Assembly: GCA_003014445.1 (NCBI GenBank)
Contig: PYGH01000007.1
Coordinates: 1 to 64,000, forward strand
From: Fusobacterium naviforme
Lineage (GTDB): Bacteria > Bacillota > Clostridia > Lachnospirales > Lachnospiraceae
Length of the DNA: 64,000 bases
Reading direction: 5' to 3'
The notes under the pieces are model-generated. The model saw only the letters and a program-made list of their open reading frames with translations, had not been told where the DNA came from and did no database searches. Shown piece after piece: positions 46,591-55,989 of this stretch; the first letter of the stretch is position 1; each line of letters opens with the position of its first letter. The position numbers were made by a program, and so were the translations under genes.

Positions 46591-48387
46591 ATGAATTTAA
46601 TGCATTTCAGGAGTGTACAGCGCATTACTGCGGCAGCACTGCTGCTCTCAATGTCTGTGCTGAGCTTCAGTCCGGCACTTGGCGCAACCGTGGTGGGCAT
46701 AGGACCGGACGGGAAGCCCTTTCAGCCGGAGCAGCAGAGTGGTGCAGAGCTTCAGAAGACCGGGGAGCGGGGCAATGCAGCAGGTGCCGGGACGGATCAG
46801 GCAGAGGAAAGCAGTACTGCGACAGAGACTGCCGAGCTCAGCGCTGTCATTGCGAACGGGAGAGTGGAGCTTAAGGGAAGCGTGAGCGGAAGCTACTCCG
46901 CGGAGGATGGAAAGCTCTATCTCTTTGCCATGGCGCCGTATCAGGATAGTCTCTTCGGAGAACCGATCGCAAATACTGCGGAGAGCGGGCAGTTCAGCTT
47001 CAGCACAGAGCTGCGTGCCGGCAGTGCGGATACCAGACTCTATGATGGTTTTGCCGTCGCGGTATGGAAGGACGGGCGCTATCAGGAGATCAGCAATCGC
47101 GCCTATATCACCAATCCAGAGACAGTGGCCGGGAGCAGACTTCCCTATCAGGCTCCGCTCACCAAAAAGGGACTGCTCGTGCAGCTGGATATGCTGAGCG
47201 ATGCCTTTGATCTCGGGGTGAAGCATGTCAATGTCAATTTTAATCTCGCACAGATCACTGCGGGAAGCGGAGTGGATTACAGCTACAGGGGCAAGACCTA
47301 TCACTTTGATGCCGCACAGATTGCGGAATATGACAAGAATATCAGCGCCTACTCAGGAAAGAGCATGCTGGTGACCGGGATTGTTCTGAACGGCTGGAAT
47401 GAGCGTATGCCGGAGCTCATCTATCCCGGTGTGAAGAAATCCGGAGACGCCTTCTACTATGGTTTTAACGCATCTACAAAGGAGGGCTATGAGACAACCA
47501 GAGCGCTGATGTCCTTTCTCGCAGAGCGCTACTCCGGAGAAAACGCAAGCTGCGGTCGCGTGACCAACTGGATCATCGGGAATGAAATCAATAACAATAA
47601 GAACTGGAATTACATGGGGGCGATGGATATGGATCGCTACGTGGAGGAGTATGTCCGCGCCTTTCGTGTGAGCTATACCGCAATTAAGAGCGCTTCTGCG
47701 AACGCAAGGGTGTTTTTCTCAATCGATGAGAACTGGAACGATCCAAATGCGGACGAAAAACTGAAGTATTCCGGAAAAAAGATTCTGGATGCGGTGAATG
47801 CTGCCATACTTCGCGGCGGAAACATCAGCTGGAATCTGGCGTATCACCCCTATCCCTATCCCATGGTGGAGCCGGAGTTCTGGGATGACCACAGCACCGG
47901 AGCCATCGTGCAGAACGAGAGCACACAGATCATAGACTTTGAGAACCTGAACGTGCTGACGGACTATCTCTGTGGCTCGGCCTTCCGGGATCCGTCGAAC
48001 AATGTGCGGCGCGTGATACTCTCCGAGCAGGGGTTCACTGCGACGAGCGCGAGCCGCGGAAATGTGGAGGAGGCTCAGGCGGCGGCCTTTGCCTACGCTT
48101 ACTATATTGCAGATTCCAATCCGTACATTGACGCGCTGATTCTGAGTCGGCAGGTGGACGCGCCTGCAGAGGTGAGAACCTCCTGCGCCTTCGGTCTCTG
48201 GGCCTGCCGCATGGATGTGGGCGATGCGATCGTCGCGACGAGAAGACGCAGGATATGGTCTGTCTTCCGGGATATAGACAAGAAGGCAAAGACTCTGGAA
48301 GCGACCGAATTTGCAAAGTCGGTGATCGGTATCAGCAAGTGGTCAGAGGTCGTTCCCTCCTTCCGCTGGAGGGCGCTGGAAAAATAA
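46591..48387 (+). CDS. Secreted DUF5722-like protein, glycosidase-like
   Basis: 598 residues with a signal peptide (RITAAALLLSMSVLSF, then PALGA). Residues about 30-75 form an acidic linker, 75-190 a beta domain with VELKGSVSGSY. From about 190 onward the sequence resembles a TIM-barrel glycoside hydrolase: KKGLLVQLDMLSDAFDLGVK, VNWIIGNEINNNKNW-like (precisely NWIIGNEINNNKNWNY), and VILSEQGFTATSAS. The NE in GNEIN and the E in LSEQGF are placed as acid/base and nucleophile Glu in clan A enzymes. I recall this as DUF5722, whose substrate is unknown. Transcribed alone after the CbiG-CobU gene, with a leader hairpin. Confidence 0.7.
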   Translation: MNLMHFRSVQRITAAALLLSMSVLSFSPALGATVVGIGPDGKPFQPEQQSGAELQKTGERGNAAGAGTDQAEESSTATETAELSAVIANGRVELKGSVSGSYSAEDGKLYLFAMAPYQDSLFGEPIANTAESGQFSFSTELRAGSADTRLYDGFAVAVWKDGRYQEISNRAYITNPETVAGSRLPYQAPLTKKGLLVQLDMLSDAFDLGVKHVNVNFNLAQITAGSGVDYSYRGKTYHFDAAQIAEYDKNISAYSGKSMLVTGIVLNGWNERMPELIYPGVKKSGDAFYYGFNASTKEGYETTRALMSFLAERYSGENASCGRVTNWIIGNEINNNKNWNYMGAMDMDRYVEEYVRAFRVSYTAIKSASANARVFFSIDENWNDPNADEKLKYSGKKILDAVNAAILRGGNISWNLAYHPYPYPMVEPEFWDDHSTGAIVQNESTQIIDFENLNVLTDYLCGSAFRDPSNNVRRVILSEQGFTATSASRGNVEEAQAAAFAYAYYIADSNPYIDALILSRQVDAPAEVRTSCAFGLWACRMDVGDAIVATRRRRIWSVFRDIDKKAKTLEATEFAKSVIGISKWSEVVPSFRWRALEK

Positions 48388-48464
48388 GAATGCACAAAAA
48401 TGCTTCCTAAAAGGAGCAGAGTCTCTCTGAAACGTACATTTGTGCGCCTCACGCGAAAAAACGC

Positions 48465-48493
48465 TTGAATTCGGGAAAGTGAAGGGGTATGAT
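48465..48493 (+). promoter_or_regulatory. Probable sigma-A promoter for asd
   Basis: TTGAAT (48465-48470), 17-base spacer, TATGAT (48488-48493). This leaves a leader of about 100 bases before the ATG at 48603; it has short self-complementary pieces but no riboswitch I recognise. Confidence 0.55.
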
Positions 48494-48602
48494 GAGCGAG
48501 TCATAATAGCTTTCCTTCACTGCTGTGCAGCTATGGTGCGCATGGTGTGTGGCGCTATTTGGCCCTGCTATCATATAAATACAGCTCACAGGAGGCATAC
48601 AG

Positions 48603-49697
48603 ATGAAGCTTGAGAGAAAACTTAGGGTTGCAGTGCTCGGAGCAACGGGCATGGTGGGACAGCGTTTCCTCACAATACTGGAGAATCATCCCTGGTATGA
48701 GGTCACTGTGCTTGCGGCAAGTGAGAGAAGCGCGGGAAAGACCTATGAGGAGGCGATCGGCGGGCGCTGGAAGCTTGACATTCCGATGCCGGAGAAATAT
48801 AAGAAGATGGTTGTCATGAATGTCAATGAGGTGGATGCGGTTGCAGCTCAGGTTGATTTCTGCTTCTCCGCCGTAGACATGACGAAGGAGGAGATACGCG
48901 CGATCGAGGATGATTATGCGAAGCATGAGACTCCGGTCGTCTCCAATAACAGCGCACATCGCTGGACTCCGGATGTTCCCATGGTGATTCCGGAGATCAA
49001 TCCGGAGCATTTTGAGATCATCAGGGCGCAGAGGAAGCGTCTTGGAACCGTGAGAGGTTTCGTCGCGGTGAAGCCAAACTGCTCGATTCAGAGCTATGCG
49101 CCGGTGCTCGCTGCATGGAAGGAGTTTGAGCCCTACGAGGTGATTGCAACTACCTATCAGGCCATCTCCGGAGCCGGTAAGAATTTTACGGACTGGCCGG
49201 AGATGCAGGGGAATATCATTCCTTACATCGGCGGTGAGGAGGAGAAGAGCGAGAAGGAACCGCTGAAGATATACGGACGAATCGAGGGTGATGAGATAGT
49301 CCCGGCTGCCGGGCCGAAGATCAGCTGTCAGTGCATACGGGTACCGGTGCTGAACGGGCACACGGCTGCAGTGTTTGTGAAGCTCAGAAGGAAGGCGGCA
49401 AAGGAGCAGCTCATTCAGAAGCTCAGAGACTATGCGGGACTTCCGCAGCAGCTCAGGCTTCCGAGCGCTCCGGAGCACTTTATCTGCTACATGGAGGAGG
49501 ACAATCGTCCCCAGGTCAGTCTGGATGTCAATTATGAGGGCGGAATGGGCATCTCGATCGGCCGTCTGAGAGAGGACAGCATCTATGACTGGAAGTTTGT
49601 GGGACTCTCCCACAACACACTGCGCGGCGCAGCAGGCGGCGCAGTGGAGTGCGCGGAGTGCCTGACTGCACTTGAGTACATCACGGCGAAGGACTGA
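48603..49697 (+). CDS. asd: Aspartate-semialdehyde dehydrogenase
   Basis: 364 residues. NADP site VAVLGATGMVGQRFLTILEN, then SAVDMTKEEIRAIE. The active-site Cys is in VKPNCSIQSYAPVL, and the His site in ISCQCIRVPVLNGHTAAVFV. The type (length and KPNCS motif) is the archaeal/fungal-like Asd found in many Clostridia rather than the E. coli type. It reduces aspartyl phosphate to the semialdehyde, feeding lysine, DAP, threonine and methionine. Monocistronic with its own promoter and terminator. Confidence 0.95.
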   Translation: MKLERKLRVAVLGATGMVGQRFLTILENHPWYEVTVLAASERSAGKTYEEAIGGRWKLDIPMPEKYKKMVVMNVNEVDAVAAQVDFCFSAVDMTKEEIRAIEDDYAKHETPVVSNNSAHRWTPDVPMVIPEINPEHFEIIRAQRKRLGTVRGFVAVKPNCSIQSYAPVLAAWKEFEPYEVIATTYQAISGAGKNFTDWPEMQGNIIPYIGGEEEKSEKEPLKIYGRIEGDEIVPAAGPKISCQCIRVPVLNGHTAAVFVKLRRKAAKEQLIQKLRDYAGLPQQLRLPSAPEHFICYMEEDNRPQVSLDVNYEGGMGISIGRLREDSIYDWKFVGLSHNTLRGAAGGAVECAECLTALEYITAKD

Positions 49698-49736
49698 GAC
49701 GCGTCGGGTCAGACAGTGAAAACAGAAGACACTTGC

Positions 49737-49774
49737 AGGACCGGGAGTACCCATATGGGCCCCGGTCCTTTTTA
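49737..49774 (+). terminator. Terminator after asd
   Basis: AGGACCGGG pairs with CCCGGTCCT around a self-complementary loop (CCCATATGGG) and is followed by TTTTT. Confidence 0.9.
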
Positions 49775-49881
49775 AGCGGTCAGGGGCAGCTGATTTTTCG
49801 CCTCAGACGGATTTTGCGGGATACGCGGTTGTGCAGCAAAAAATGAAAGGGAAAAGCCGGCGCACAACAGTCAGGCTTCCG

Positions 49882-49890
49882 TGTTATAAT
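49882..49890 (+). promoter_or_regulatory. Extended -10 promoter for galM-topB
   Basis: TGTTATAAT: a perfect -10 hexamer (49885-49890) with the extended TG. No good -35 is present. Confidence 0.55.
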
Positions 49891-49926
49891 GACGTATACA
49901 GATCAATGACAGCGGAGGTAGAAGGT

Positions 49927-51018
49927 ATGAGTGCAGAGGTGAGAGAGTTCGGGACGCTTGCGGACGGACGCAGCACACAGCTTTTTGTCCTGACAAACGG
50001 AAATGGCACGGAAGCTGTATTTACAGATCTTGGAGCTGCCTGGGTCAGCATGAAGGTGCAGGACAGGGAGGGGGAGCCGGGAGATGTGCTCCTCGGTTAT
50101 GATGATCCTGAGACCTACAACCAGAATCCGACCGCTATGGGGGAGTGTGTCGGGCGCTCGGCAAATCGGATCGGCAACGGGAAGTTCACGCTGGAGGGAG
50201 TGGAGTACCAGCTCGCAAGGAATAATCACGGGAAGAACAATCTGCACTCCGGACCTGAGCTCTGGTGCAGCAGGCTCTTCGCGGCAGAGACTGAACAGAC
50301 AAAGCTCGGGAGCAGGGTTTCTTTCCGGCTGAATTCCCCGGACGGAGATCAGGGCTTTCCGGGCGCGCTTGCTTTTTCTGTGTCCTATACGCTCACAGAG
50401 GACGATTCAGTCATCATTGAGTACAGCGGAATATCGGATCGCACGACCATCATCAATCCGACGAACCACGCCTATTTCAACCTTCGAGGCCATGATGCCG
50501 GGGATATTCTTGAGCAGGAGGTCTGGATCAACGCAGATTACTTTACGCCGGTGGATGCGTGGTCACTGCCGACTGGAGAGCTGCGCCCGGTCGACGGCAC
50601 ACCCATGGATTTCACCATGCAGAAGCCAATTGGACAGGACATTGATGCAGACGATGAGCAGCTCAGATTCGGGAGCGGCTATGATCATAATTTTGTCCTG
50701 AACAACCAGGATGGAAAGCTGCGTCTCGTCGCAAAGGCGAAGGACAGGGAGAGCGGCAGAAAGCTGAAGATCTACACAGACCTGCCCGGCCTTCAGTTCT
50801 ACACAGGCAATGCGCTTCGCGCGGAGCAGGCAGAGGGCAAGGGCGGTGCAGTCTATGATCACCGTGCGGGCTACTGCTTTGAGACACAGTTCTATCCCGA
50901 CGCCGTGAATCATGCGGAATGGCCGCAGCCCGTATTCCGGGCGGGGGAGGAATACCATCACTTCACAATCTATAAATTTGTGACGCGGCTTGATGAGGAA
51001 GAGGAGGAGACGGACTGA
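49927..51018 (+). CDS. galM: Aldose 1-epimerase
   Basis: 363 residues. ATG 49927 follows GGAGGT by 7 bases; an ATG seven codons upstream is before that site. Marks are FTDLGAAWVSMKVQD, GECVGRSANRIGNGKFTLEG, NGKNNLHSG-like (NNHGKNNLHSGPE), TNPTNHAYFNLRGH with catalytic His, and PGLQFYTGNAL, GYCFETQFYPDAVNH with catalytic Glu. It interconverts alpha and beta anomers of galactose and related sugars. No gal genes are near. Its stop overlaps the start of topB. Confidence 0.93.
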   Translation: MSAEVREFGTLADGRSTQLFVLTNGNGTEAVFTDLGAAWVSMKVQDREGEPGDVLLGYDDPETYNQNPTAMGECVGRSANRIGNGKFTLEGVEYQLARNNHGKNNLHSGPELWCSRLFAAETEQTKLGSRVSFRLNSPDGDQGFPGALAFSVSYTLTEDDSVIIEYSGISDRTTIINPTNHAYFNLRGHDAGDILEQEVWINADYFTPVDAWSLPTGELRPVDGTPMDFTMQKPIGQDIDADDEQLRFGSGYDHNFVLNNQDGKLRLVAKAKDRESGRKLKIYTDLPGLQFYTGNALRAEQAEGKGGAVYDHRAGYCFETQFYPDAVNHAEWPQPVFRAGEEYHHFTIYKFVTRLDEEEEETD

Positions 51019-53069
51019 AGCGCCTATTCATAGCTGAGAAGCCGAGCGTCGCGCAGGAGTTTGCGCGGGTACTCGGAGTGAGCGGCAGGAGACAGAACGG
51101 ATATCTGGAGAGCACAGATACTGTCGTGACCTGGTGTGTGGGGCATCTCATCACGATGAGCTACCCTGAGAAGTATGATCCGCGGCTGAAGCGCTGGGAT
51201 CTGGAGATGCTTCCCTTTCTTCCGGAGCAGTTTCTCTATGAGGTGATCGGAGATGTGAAGCCCCAGTTTGAGATTGTGAAGGGGCTCCTGAACCGGGAAG
51301 ATATAGACACCATCTATATCTGTACGGACTCCGGGAGAGAGGGAGAGTATATCTATCGCCTGGTGGACCGCATGGCCGGAGTGCAGGGGAAGACAAGGAA
51401 GCGTGTCTGGATCGACTCGCAGACAGAGGAGGAGATTCAGAGAGGTATACGTGAGGCGAAGGACTGGAGTGCCTATGACGGACTGAGCGCGGCTGCTTAT
51501 CTTAGGGCGCAGGAGGATTACCTCATGGGAATCAATTTTTCCCGCGCGCTGACGCTTCGCTACGGGGGAACATTATCCGCATTCTTAAAGAGGAATCACA
51601 CGGTCGTGAGCGTCGGGCGGGTTATGACCTGTGTGCTCGGCATGGTTGTGCGGCGCGAGCGAGAGATACGCGCCTTTGTAAAGACGCCCTTTTACCGCGT
51701 GCTCGCCGAGTTTTCAAAGGATGGAACCTCGTTTGAGGGAGAGTGGCGTGCGGTGGAGGGTTCCGCGTACTTTCAGTCACCGAAGCTCTATAAGGAGAAT
51801 GGCTTCAGGAGGCGGGAGGACGCAGATGCACTGATACGCCTGCTCAGTCAGGACGGCAGAGAGGCACAGGTTGTGAAGTCGGAGAAAAAGCGGGAAATAC
51901 GGAACGCCCCGCTGCTCTATAACCTCGCTGAGCTCCAGAACGACTGCGCGAAGCGCTTTAAGATAAGCCCGGATGAGACGTTAAAGCTTGTGCAGGAGCT
52001 CTACGAGAAGAAGCTGGTGACCTATCCCAGAACGGACGCGCGTGTGCTGTCCACGGCGGTCGCGAAGGAAATAAGCAGGAATCTTTCCGGACTTCAGAGG
52101 CTCACAGCAGAGCTTCCGGAGGTCGCAGGCTTTGCTGCGGAGGTACTCGACGGAGAGAGCTTCAAAAAGATAGGCAGGACGCGCTACACGAATGACGCGC
52201 AGATCACAGATCACTATGCGATCATTCCCACGGGGCAGGGCTTTCCGGCGCTGCGATCACTGAGGCAGCTCCAGCGTGAGGTCTATGAGATGATATGCCG
52301 GCGATTCCTAGCTGTCTTCTATCCCCCAGCAGTTTATGAGAAGCGATCCGTGGAGACTGCGCTCGGCAGAGAACACTTTTTCTCGAACTTTCGCATCTGT
52401 ACGGAGGAGGGATGGCAGAAGCTGTCCGTCTTCCGGCAGCAGGCGAAGAACGGAGAGGAGCATGAAGACATGGCGGAGGGACGCGGTGAGGATCCGGCCT
52501 TCCGCGCCATGCTTGCGGGTCTTAAGAAGGGCAGCGAATGCGGAGCGGGGAACTATTCTGTGAAGGAGGGAGGGACCTCGCCGCCAAAGCGCTACAGCTC
52601 CGGTTCCATGATACTTGCCATGGAGAATGCGGGACAGCTTATTGAGGATGAGGAGCTTCGAAGCCAGATCAGGGGCTCCGGGATTGGAACCAGCGCGACG
52701 CGGGCGGAGATCCTTAAGAAGCTCGTGAGCAACAGCTATCTCGCATTGAACGGAAAGACGCAGATTATCACACCGACCCTGCTCGGTGAGATGATCTACG
52801 AGGCGGTGCTGCTCTCCATGCGGCAGCTTCTGAATCCGGAGCTCACAGCCAGCTGGGAGAAGGGACTGGGCTACGTGGCGGAGGGAGCCATAAGCCCGGA
52901 GGAGTATATGCAGAAGCTCAGGGAATTTGTGAGCCGCCGCACAGAACAGGTAAAGCAGAGCAATGCGGGCTACCTTCTGCGGGATGCTTTTGAGAAGATG
53001 AGGAGCTACTATCCGCCTCCAAAGGCAGTGGCGGCTAGAACTTACAGAAAAAAGAGGAGAGATCAGTGA
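51015..53069 (+). CDS. topB: DNA topoisomerase III, apparently initiated at CTG
   Basis: 684 residues if started at CTG 51015. The first residues KRLFIAEKPSVAQEFARVLG are the TOPRIM start of TopB, including the catalytic Glu of AEKPS. No ATG, GTG or TTG precedes them: an in-frame stop lies at 50994-50996. GAGGAGGAG (51001-51009) sits 5-6 bases before CTG, and CTGA overlaps the galM stop. A GTG at 51078 would cut off this motif. Downstream marks are TVVTWCVGHLITM, CTDSGREGEYIYRLV (second TOPRIM Asp pair), GRVMTCVLGMVVRREREI, LVTYPRTDARVLS with the active Tyr, and GIGTSATRAEILKKL. It decatenates DNA. No C-terminal zinc fingers are seen. Confidence 0.88.
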   Translation: MKRLFIAEKPSVAQEFARVLGVSGRRQNGYLESTDTVVTWCVGHLITMSYPEKYDPRLKRWDLEMLPFLPEQFLYEVIGDVKPQFEIVKGLLNREDIDTIYICTDSGREGEYIYRLVDRMAGVQGKTRKRVWIDSQTEEEIQRGIREAKDWSAYDGLSAAAYLRAQEDYLMGINFSRALTLRYGGTLSAFLKRNHTVVSVGRVMTCVLGMVVRREREIRAFVKTPFYRVLAEFSKDGTSFEGEWRAVEGSAYFQSPKLYKENGFRRREDADALIRLLSQDGREAQVVKSEKKREIRNAPLLYNLAELQNDCAKRFKISPDETLKLVQELYEKKLVTYPRTDARVLSTAVAKEISRNLSGLQRLTAELPEVAGFAAEVLDGESFKKIGRTRYTNDAQITDHYAIIPTGQGFPALRSLRQLQREVYEMICRRFLAVFYPPAVYEKRSVETALGREHFFSNFRICTEEGWQKLSVFRQQAKNGEEHEDMAEGRGEDPAFRAMLAGLKKGSECGAGNYSVKEGGTSPPKRYSSGSMILAMENAGQLIEDEELRSQIRGSGIGTSATRAEILKKLVSNSYLALNGKTQIITPTLLGEMIYEAVLLSMRQLLNPELTASWEKGLGYVAEGAISPEEYMQKLREFVSRRTEQVKQSNAGYLLRDAFEKMRSYYPPPKAVAARTYRKKRRDQ

Positions 53070-53740
53070 TGAAAAAAGAGGATCTGCGCATTGAGGCGCT
53101 GTTTGATCTGAACAGAACCATAGCGGCATCGCTGTTTCAGCGCTTCAGCTATCCCTGGGAGCTGCTGCCGGAGATCGGCAGCTTTCTTATGGAACTCGGT
53201 CAGACGCTTCCGGAGTCGGAGTATGAGAAGTTTGGGGACTGCATCTGGGTACACCGTTCTGTTAAGATCGCGAAGACTGTAAGCCTGAAGGGGCCGCTGA
53301 TTGTCTGCGAGGGCGCGGAGTTGCGGCAGTGTGCCTTTGTGAGGGGGAATGTCCTGATCGGGCGGAATTCCGTTGCGGGCAATTCCTGCGAGTTCAAGAA
53401 CAGCATACTCTTTGATCACGTGGAGACGCCGCACTACAACTATATCGGCGATTCAGTCCTTGGCTATCGCAGTCACATGGGGGCGGGAGCCATTACGAGC
53501 AATATTAAGAGCGACAGAAAGAATGTTGTGATTCACTGCGGGAATGAGAAAATTGAGACCGGCCTCAGGAAGATCGGAGGGATACTCGGCGACGGCGTTG
53601 AGGTGGGCTGCGGTTCGGTTCTGAATCCGGGGGTCGTGATCGGAAAGAATACGACTGTGTATCCGCTCTCCAGCGTGCGCGGCGTGCTTCCTGCAGACAC
53701 GATCTACAAGCGGGAGGGTGAGCTGGTTCGGAAGCGCTGA
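53069..53740 (+). CDS. Left-handed beta-helix (hexapeptide) protein, GlmU-like nucleotidyltransferase/acyltransferase tail
   Basis: 223 residues. ATG 53069 overlaps the topB stop (TGATG). An N-terminal helix pair leads to hexapeptide repeats: IWVHRSVKIAKTVSLKGPLI, AELRQCAFVRGNVLIGRNSV, KNSILFDHVETPHYNYIGDS, and VLGYRSHMGAGAITSNIKSD, which match the acetyltransferase half of GlmU and UDP-sugar pyrophosphorylases. No nucleotidyltransferase domain (GGxGTRM) is present. It might acylate a sugar, but the substrate is unknown. In Clostridia it is often annotated as a UDP-N-acetylglucosamine pyrophosphorylase by similarity only. Confidence 0.75.
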   Translation: MKKEDLRIEALFDLNRTIAASLFQRFSYPWELLPEIGSFLMELGQTLPESEYEKFGDCIWVHRSVKIAKTVSLKGPLIVCEGAELRQCAFVRGNVLIGRNSVAGNSCEFKNSILFDHVETPHYNYIGDSVLGYRSHMGAGAITSNIKSDRKNVVIHCGNEKIETGLRKIGGILGDGVEVGCGSVLNPGVVIGKNTTVYPLSSVRGVLPADTIYKREGELVRKR

Positions 53741-53763
53741 GACTGCTGTGCATTCTTTGTTCA

Positions 53764-53792
53764 TTGCAATTCTGTTTTTTCTGTGTTACGAT
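53764..53792 (+). promoter_or_regulatory. Possible promoter before the cobalamin adenosyltransferase-like gene
   Basis: TTGCAA (53764-53769), 17-base spacer, and TACGAT (53787-53792) preceded by TG (extended -10). Confidence 0.45.
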
Positions 53793-53820
53793 TAGCTGAT
53801 TGAAGGGAGCTAATATTCCG

Positions 53821-54321
53821 ATGGGAAGGTGCAGAGGGAAGGTCTTTGTGATCTGCGGCAGCGGTGCCGGAAAGACAAACGCCGCGATCGGCAAGGGCAT
53901 CAAGTCCCTTGCGGAGGGCAAGACAGTGACCGTGATTCAGTTTCTGAAGGGAAAGGCCAACGAGGGACTTATGTCTGTCCTGAAGAAACTGGAGCCGGAG
54001 ATGAAAGCCTTCAGCTTTGAGAAGTATGAGGGCCTGTTTGAGAATCTCTCGGAGGAGGAAAAACAGGAAGATCTCATGAATCTTAAGAATGGCATCAGCT
54101 TTGCGCGGAAGGTCATGACGACAGCGGGGAGCGATGTGCTGATTCTGGATGAGCTTCTGGGACTCGTGGATCTCGGTGTGCTGAGCACCGAGGAACTGAA
54201 ACGGCTCATTCAGGCAAAGCCGGAGGAGATGGAGCTCGTCATCACCGGGAAGGTGTTTCCGGCGGAGTTAAAGAAGGATGTAGACTGCATCTCGTATATC
54301 GAAAGTATGATTAATACCTGA
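53821..54321 (+). CDS. CobO/BtuR-type cobalamin adenosyltransferase-like ATPase
   Basis: 166 residues from ATG 53821 (GAAGGGAG lies 11 bases before). The fold is that of the CobA/CobO group: VFVICGSGAGKTNAAIGKGI, VTVIQFLKGKANEGLMSVLK, VLILDELLGLVDLGVLSTEE (Walker B) and MELVITGKVFPAELKKDVDC. CobO transfers adenosyl from ATP to cob(I)alamin or its precursors. The P-loop GSGAGKTNA differs from the usual GxGKGKTTA, and the usual 'TGR' loop reads TGK, so I call it adenosyltransferase-like. The only other cobalamin-linked gene in the window is the CbiG-CobU fusion at 44987. Confidence 0.75.
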   Translation: MGRCRGKVFVICGSGAGKTNAAIGKGIKSLAEGKTVTVIQFLKGKANEGLMSVLKKLEPEMKAFSFEKYEGLFENLSEEEKQEDLMNLKNGISFARKVMTTAGSDVLILDELLGLVDLGVLSTEELKRLIQAKPEEMELVITGKVFPAELKKDVDCISYIESMINT

Positions 54322-54334
54322 CGGAGGTAGTGCC

Positions 54335-55222
54335 TTGGCTATATTTGAAGGCTCCGGTGTGGCCCTTATCACACCGATGAACAGGGATTTCAGTGTAAAC
54401 TACGATAAGCTGGAGGAGATTATCGAGGAGCAGATCGCAGGCGGAACAGATGCGATCATCGCCTGCGGAACCACGGGAGAGTCCTCAACGCTCACACATG
54501 AGGAGCATATTGAGGTCATCAAGCGCAGCTGTGAGATCGTGAGAGGCAGAATTCCGGTTGTTGCGGGGACGGGGAGCAATGCTACGGACACGGCGATCTA
54601 TCTCTCTGTCGAGGCGCAGCGCTGCGGCGCAGACGCGCTGCTGCTGGTGTCTCCCTACTACAACAAGACGACACAGAGTGGACTCATTCGCCACTACACA
54701 GAGGTGGCGCACGCGGTCACGCTTCCGATTCTGCTCTATAATATTCCCGGGCGCACCGGCATGACCATACAGCCGGAGACAATTGCCCATCTGGTAAAAA
54801 ATGTCGACAATATTGTGGGACTGAAGGAGGCAAGCGGAAACTTTACCGCGATCCTCCGCACACTCTCGCTGATGGACGGCGCGCCGATCGAGATTTACTC
54901 GGGAAATGACGATCAGATTGTGCCGCTGATGGCACTGGGAGGCAAGGGAGTGATCTCGGTGCTTGCCAATGTTGCACCGCAGCAGACGCATGATTTATGT
55001 ATGGCGGCGCTGCATGGAGATATGGCGAAGGCAGCCGCCATGCAGATAGAGGCGGCAGAGCTGGTTCGTCAGCTCTTTGTCGAGGTGAATCCGATCCCGG
55101 TGAAAACAGCCATGAATCTCATGGGCAGAGAGGTGGGGCCGCTTCGTCTTCCGCTCTGTGAGATGGAGGAGGAGAATCTCCGAACCCTGAGAGCGGCCAT
55201 GAAGGAGTATGGTATTCTGTGA
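54335..55222 (+). CDS. dapA: 4-hydroxy-tetrahydrodipicolinate synthase
   Basis: 295 residues from TTG 54335, 6 bases after ACGGAGGT. Marks are SGVALITPMNRDFSVNYDKL, IIACGTTGESSTLTHEEHIE, VSPYYNKTTQSGLIRHYTEV, LYNIPGRTGMTIQPET with catalytic Tyr, and IVGLKEASGNF with the Schiff-base Lys. It condenses pyruvate with aspartate semialdehyde, committing to lysine/DAP. The stop overlaps dapB by 4 bases (GTGA). Confidence 0.96.
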   Translation: MAIFEGSGVALITPMNRDFSVNYDKLEEIIEEQIAGGTDAIIACGTTGESSTLTHEEHIEVIKRSCEIVRGRIPVVAGTGSNATDTAIYLSVEAQRCGADALLLVSPYYNKTTQSGLIRHYTEVAHAVTLPILLYNIPGRTGMTIQPETIAHLVKNVDNIVGLKEASGNFTAILRTLSLMDGAPIEIYSGNDDQIVPLMALGGKGVISVLANVAPQQTHDLCMAALHGDMAKAAAMQIEAAELVRQLFVEVNPIPVKTAMNLMGREVGPLRLPLCEMEEENLRTLRAAMKEYGIL

Positions 55223-55989
55223 TTAATATCATTTTGCATGGCTGCAACGGCCATATGGGAAGAATGATCTGTGATACGGCTGCGGAGGAGACAGGTATTC
55301 GCATCGCAGCGGGTGTCGATGTTGATACTGCAGTACACTATGATTTTCCGGTCTTTGAGCATATGTCTGATATTTCGGGTGTCGAGGCGGATGTGATCAT
55401 TGACTTTTCGGTGGCGCGCGCAGTGGATGAACTGATCTCCTATGTTGAGAAAACACAGATCCCCGCCATCATCTGTACGACTGGGCTCACGATGGAGCAG
55501 CAGATCCGACTGGAGGAGGCATCCAAGAAGACGGCTCTGCTTCGCAGTGCCAATATGGCGCTGGGGGTGAATCTGCTGATCAGGCTTGCGGCGGACGCCG
55601 CAAAAATTCTTGCGGCGAATGGCTATGACATTGAGATCGTGGAGAAGCATCACAGACGCAAGGTGGATGCGCCGAGCGGAACTGCACTTGCCATTGCGGA
55701 TTCCATTAATGATGCCTGCGACGGACAGTTTCGCTATGTCTACGGGCGTTCCGAGCGCCATGAGGCCAGGGATCCACATGAGATCGGTATTTCAGCGGTG
55801 CGCGGCGGAACAATTCCCGGGGATCATGATGTGATCTTTGCCGGAGAGGACGAGCTCATTACGCTGAGCCACACCGCCTACAGCCGGAAGATCTGGGCAA
55901 AAGGCGCCTTTACTGCGGCGCGCTTCCTCGCCGGAAAGCCCGCTGGTTACTATACCATGGCGGATGTGATCGGAGATGTGCTGAAGTGA
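55219..55989 (+). CDS. dapB: 4-hydroxy-tetrahydrodipicolinate reductase
   Basis: 256 residues from GTG 55219. The NAD(P) site is IILHGCNGHMGRMICDTAAE. The substrate loop is EKHHRRKVDAPSGTALAIAD, and GTIPGDHDVIFAGEDELITL is the usual later motif. It reduces the DapA product. Coupled to dapA by overlap. Confidence 0.96.
   Translation: MINIILHGCNGHMGRMICDTAAEETGIRIAAGVDVDTAVHYDFPVFEHMSDISGVEADVIIDFSVARAVDELISYVEKTQIPAIICTTGLTMEQQIRLEEASKKTALLRSANMALGVNLLIRLAADAAKILAANGYDIEIVEKHHRRKVDAPSGTALAIADSINDACDGQFRYVYGRSERHEARDPHEIGISAVRGGTIPGDHDVIFAGEDELITLSHTAYSRKIWAKGAFTAARFLAGKPAGYYTMADVIGDVLK

Follow-up and report, generated by a model that had tools for sequence, protein, structure and literature searches.

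The closest described systems are of three kinds. In Listeria, infC starts with ATT and rnhC with ATC, as reported in passages of PMC13068326, which also cite a study of start codon efficiency in saying that E. coli initiates on CTG at a reduced rate. Switches of canonical starts to CUG were counted in 36 triplets of close genomes; according to text from PMC5622118, there were two from 61,358 AUG starts, one from 5,080 GUG starts and one from 2,468 UUG starts. Finally, the 4-base overlap is given in part of PMC10666635 as the commonest arrangement of same-strand gene pairs and is described there as ATGA or GTGA. In our literature search of titles and abstracts, with most subscription journals lying outside it, topB was not found described with a CTG start, and the search yielded no plasmid repA with a CUG start.

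The window analyzed here comprises 64,000 nucleotides of Fusobacterium naviforme, a member of Lachnospiraceae (assembly GCA_003014445.1, contig PYGH01000007.1, positions 1 to 64,000 of the forward strand), and the features of the locus are collected in Table 1. The upstream gene, galM, scored 314.3 with the NCBIfam model NF008277, above the cut-off of 240, and 321.2 with TIGR02636, below the cut-off of 397.65. Its start is likely the ATG given in the table, and its frame is open from GTG 49831. The protein of the following gene, read from CTG, matched Topoisom_bac (323.3 bits, cut-off 35.1) and Toprim (38.2 bits, cut-off 23.1) in Pfam. The NCBIfam topB models were its best two matches, yet their scores stayed below the curated cut-offs (NF005829, 547.9 against 597; TIGR01056, 495.4 against 515.75), and for this reason the gene is named topB-type by best match. 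The best matches among solved structures were topoisomerase III chains, structure 1D6M being presumably the E. coli enzyme. A single topB-type copy was found in the source genome, where the sole further match was a 29% homolog.

Table 1. Features of the galM–topB locus in the window
Feature	Position	Strand	Remark
Hairpin resembling a terminator, with a U run, in the asd–galM interval	49737..49773	+	-23.5 kcal/mol for 49730-49780, z -3.37
galM (aldose 1-epimerase)	49927..51018	+	Pfam Aldose_epim, 282.9 bits
TGA closing the topB frame upstream of CTG	50994..50996	+	
Shine-Dalgarno AGGAGG	51002..51007	+	7 bases before CTG
topB-type gene (type IA topoisomerase; best match, topoisomerase III)	51015..53069	+	684 aa
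Proposed CTG start codon	51015..51017	+	overlaps the galM stop as CTGA (4-base overlap)
galM stop TGA	51016-51018	+	
GTG, codon 22, first canonical in-frame start	51078..51080	+	would remove residues 1-21
Next gene (glucosamine-1-phosphate acetyltransferase-like)	53069..53740	+	ATG 53069 overlaps the topB stop as TGATG

The initial annotation had stated that the topB frame lacks ATG, GTG and TTG between the stop at 50994 and the conserved TopB start. Direct reading of the window confirmed this, and none of the three occurs before codon 22. The six codons separating that stop from CTG 51015 are GGA AGA GGA GGA GAC GGA, and none of ATG, GTG, TTG, CTG, ATT, ATC and ATA is among them. From the CTG onward, the gene reads CTG AAG CGC CTA TTC ATA GCT GAG AAG CCG in the -1 frame of galM. 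The ribosome-binding site placed ahead of CTG was also there: GAGGAGGAG occupies 51001-51009 and is followed by five bases and then CTG. The conserved TopB N-terminus LKRLFIAEKPSVAQEF, said to be in frame with CTG, indeed aligns with the N-terminus of the solved topoisomerase III chains, so that residue 3 here corresponds to residue 2 there. The aligned Glu (E8 in the window protein and E7 in those chains) is what we take to be the catalytic residue. The further claim that CTGA overlaps the galM stop holds in the window and in five other species but fails in one, G006, which has CTG all the same.

The genus comparison included the source genome and six other species (G001–G006); the gene was present in all six, with 68–83% identity over the matched stretches. 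At the identical codon, CTG was found in all seven species, in each case with AA next, and none of the six relatives has ATG at the position corresponding to 51015. An alignment of the seven regions showed CTGAA to be invariant, as is GGnGG in the Shine-Dalgarno sequence, with poorly conserved upstream DNA around them. GGAGG at a spacing of 7 occurs in five species, and GAGG at a spacing of 10 in G004 and G002; the Shine-Dalgarno energies range from -9.5 to -13.4 kcal/mol, versus a median of -9.8 for 46 genes of the window's own contig. Judged by eye, the seven single folds of the start region are unlike each other, and Rfam gave no match at the gathering score in 48300-55500.

The exceptional species, G006, has the same region as L020 (MAG RUG13900, uncultured Lachnospiraceae), and the two were counted once. 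Its galM stops 70 bases short of CTG, and the topB frame is interrupted by a TAA in this interval. The retention of CTG without the overlap indicates that CTG is not merely a by-product of the overlap, and re-initiation from galM cannot explain everything in this species. In the same region (L020 2996-3004), a frame of two codons, ATG CAC TGA, has its stop exactly at the topB CTGA; its ATG stands just two bases after GGAGG, and CTG stands seven bases after the same GGAGG. The TopB of G006 (L020 3055-5196) also carries an Asn/Gly/Ala-rich low-complexity insert, GAENGAENGMTNGAANGAG, which is absent from the window TopB and at which tblastn splits the gene.

Pairwise identity of TopB among the seven species is 0.66-0.90. 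When the close pair G003/G001 is excluded, agreement is 0.32-0.53 at four-fold sites and 0.40-0.73 for codons ending in C or T; the synonymous sites of the genus are near saturation. Given such saturation, finding CTG in seven of seven species points to clear conservation of the codon, beyond chance.

To set the genus against its relatives, 130 loci were taken, a sample composed of the best-matching loci and 20 of the next-ranked rows. They represent 123 distinct loci, namely 6 from the genus, each with CTG and not counting the window, and 117 from outside it. A canonical start was found in all 117 non-genus loci of this best-matching sample (ATG in 104, TTG in 9 and GTG in 4), located at the CTG position or one or two codons upstream, most with one extra residue after Met. 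A fixed CTG-plus-motif pattern, which detects only copies without that extra residue, hit 3 of 397 family genomes, and these are the three genus genomes in the draw. The interpretation of CTG as the topB start in the initial annotation thus gained support, the codon being conserved in the genus and the start canonical in every sampled outside locus.

In a tree of 104 TopB proteins (quick method, midpoint root), the genus forms one clade with a support of 99. Its sister is a Johnsonella MAG (L057), with a support of 95 for the pair, in which 21 bases separate the end of galM from a topB that starts with ATG. The simplest history is a single origin of CTG in the ancestor of the genus. In Cuneatibacter caecimuris (L026), there seems to be an 8-base overlap between galM and a topB starting with ATG, which suggests that a galM–topB overlap arose elsewhere with a canonical start. 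A second TopB homolog, 34-38% identical, was observed in G002, G005 and G001 (L010, L011 and L012) with ATG beside the motif, possibly on mobile elements. The homologs L010 and L012 (mobile-looking, with ATG), as well as L011 and L019, were excluded as paralogs.

A survey of starts covered 46 frames of the window's own contig with homologs in the compared stretches of the relatives. Twenty of them, including topB, were flagged because no canonical codon stands at the point where homology begins or ahead of it. Among the other 19, 13 are matched in at least one relative by a canonical codon at that position, and inspection by eye assigned a canonical start to the remaining six. The 26 unflagged frames passed a weak test only, namely that a canonical codon was available. 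Of all 46 frames, topB alone combines the lack of a usable canonical start with a protein sequence strongly conserved upstream of its first canonical codon, and a genus-wide relaxation of start codon choice is not supported within this set. A tRNA-Met with the arm GGG-CTCATAA-CCC is present in six of the seven genomes; the best match in G005, whose genome is 82% complete, is no tRNA. Neither this arm nor the survey suggests a changed initiation system.

Based on the above results, CTG 51015 is very probably the true start of topB, a CUG at which fMet would initiate with the help of re-initiation from galM, and which would have a single origin. The facts behind this proposal are the absence of another usable start, the conservation of the codon, the Shine-Dalgarno sequence, the overlap in six of seven species and the single clade; from them we infer that initiation occurs at CTG and involves re-initiation, as well as any reason why a weak codon was kept. 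The initiator tRNA (fMet, anticodon CAU) would pair with CUG despite the mismatch at the first position, assisted by the well-spaced Shine-Dalgarno sequence. In the window and five other species, a ribosome ending galM at the overlapping UGA would re-initiate on CUG. The arrangement would have originated once at the genus base, from a canonical-start topB located slightly downstream of galM, and been retained since. A good Shine-Dalgarno sequence together with the ribosomes from galM would offset the weak codon, and low TopB output would be a consequence.

Literature bearing on these steps is as follows. In sections of PMC11497404, CUG initiation is inefficient with either the wild-type or a variant initiator tRNA and pairing at the first position is poor; the structures presented there use the M1 variant of the initiator tRNA. 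Re-initiation is aided by a Shine-Dalgarno sequence and a short distance, and can use non-AUG codons if the initiator anticodon is altered to match, as stated in parts of PMC2268962. PMC4648390, which deals with eukaryotic cells, was set aside.

Why CTG was retained is a separate matter. In the six species with the overlap, the last galM codon is GAC, AAC, GCC, GAC, AAC and AAC, the third base always being C. A change of this C to T would be silent for galM and would yield the canonical TTG, one base away. It is conceivable that the genus keeps a poor topB start on purpose, so that CTG would shut out most free initiation and little topoisomerase III would be made, in most species by ribosomes handed over from galM, and that selection removes the C-to-T change. 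We put this forward as a tentative hypothesis, which we doubt somewhat more than we believe. Nothing on TopB abundance was found in the available portion of PMC7140829, and the low-dose idea is therefore without support from print.

Alternatively, the same CTG start may have been fixed once and never replaced, its retention being historical or incidental and owing nothing to useful weak initiation; this explanation falls just short of being probable. Since the genus is one clade, one origin suffices for it. Moreover, when only codons ending in C or T are allowed throughout a column, all-C arises by itself in 7 of 72 cases in topB and 3 of 52 in galM, which makes the presence of C rather than T only modest evidence. 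Against it, all-C is rare in columns that resemble the last galM codon in containing three or more different pairs of first two bases (2/174 in topB for seven species and 1/138 in galM for six species); with at least four such pairs, the counts are 0/78 and 1/66, respectively. The nearness of the silent change to TTG, and the persistence of C in G006 even though the galM overlap is gone there, also speak against purely incidental retention. Support for a preference for C as against T alone, and hence for CTG as against TTG, is only moderate.

Other explanations deny that CTG is the start. If the true start were GTG 51078 or another downstream codon, the upstream conservation would be meaningless. 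It is true that, in the window, no canonical start precedes this GTG in the topB frame. However, the first canonical codon is number 22, 19, 12, 5, 22, 38 and 19 in the seven species, and codon 22 reads GTG, GTG, GTC, GTA, GTG, GTT and GTG, being GTG in four only. In G002, codon 5 is TTG, though it lies approximately 22 bases from its Shine-Dalgarno sequence. Starting at codon 22 would also drop the first Toprim strand, which is conserved as protein, and would lower the Toprim score to 26.1 bits. Counted from codon 2, the protein identities ahead of the first canonical topB codon in the window are 20/21, 22/26, 23/25, 23/27, 22/25 and 24/26. An internal start was consequently rejected, the GTG codon being unconserved among the seven species, and we regard it as very improbable. 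An upstream start was not adopted either. No start-like codon lies between the in-frame stop and CTG in five of the seven species. The exceptions are G003 and G001, whose topB frame extends upstream for 42 open codons, with a GTG 40 codons up; the candidates there (GTG, ATT and CTG, with two ATT in G001) lie 11 to 40 codons up, in a stretch without counterpart in the others.

A programmed -1 frameshift producing a GalM–TopB fusion, in which CTG is an ordinary Leu codon, would agree with the position of topB in the -1 frame of galM and with the overlap of the frames in six of seven species. It is contradicted by G006, with the 70-base separation and the intervening TAA, and by the absence of an X_XXY_YYZ slippery heptamer from the open zone in all seven species, and is even harder to credit than an internal start. 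A sequencing or assembly error at 51015 can be practically dismissed, as the same CTG is shared by seven species, one of which (G003) is a single contig of 2,151,431 bases.

The hairpin between asd and galM has 9 or more pairs followed by the U run and is probably an intrinsic terminator; it was missed by the terminator scan because of the loop limit of the scan, and the yield of the promoter and terminator scan did not exceed that from shuffled sequences. The sequence GTGATG at the topB stop (53066-53071) allows the next gene to start at GTG 53066 or at ATG 53069, both overlapping the stop. Based on the hairpin before galM and the TGATG overlap after topB, galM and topB may belong to a single unit together with the following gene.

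A genus-wide CTG start offers a natural test case for the retention of weak starts in bacteria, with TTG one small change away. It also has a practical side: software that accepts only ATG, GTG and TTG would trim the conserved N-terminus of TopB, and would do so differently per species, as the first canonical codon ranges from codon 5 to codon 38.

In comparison with the known systems, the genus-fixed CTG of topB is a variant of conserved non-canonical starts and not a new kind of system. As described in the passages of PMC13068326, infC and rnhC of Listeria likewise show a fixed start other than ATG, GTG or TTG in one core gene, nearly all other genes being canonical. Unlike them, topB has CTG, encodes a topoisomerase and has a 4-base stop–start overlap in six of seven species, and its start is deduced from sequence. 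As in the ATGA and GTGA coupled pairs treated in part of PMC10666635, the stop and start share four bases and the Shine-Dalgarno sequence lies inside the upstream gene; in the galM–topB pair, however, the start is CTG, the coupling is putative, and CTG is kept in G006, where the overlap either disappeared or never existed. With the switches tabulated in the text from PMC5622118, topB shares the replacement of a canonical start by CUG, but here the CUG persists across seven species whose synonymous sites are nearly saturated.
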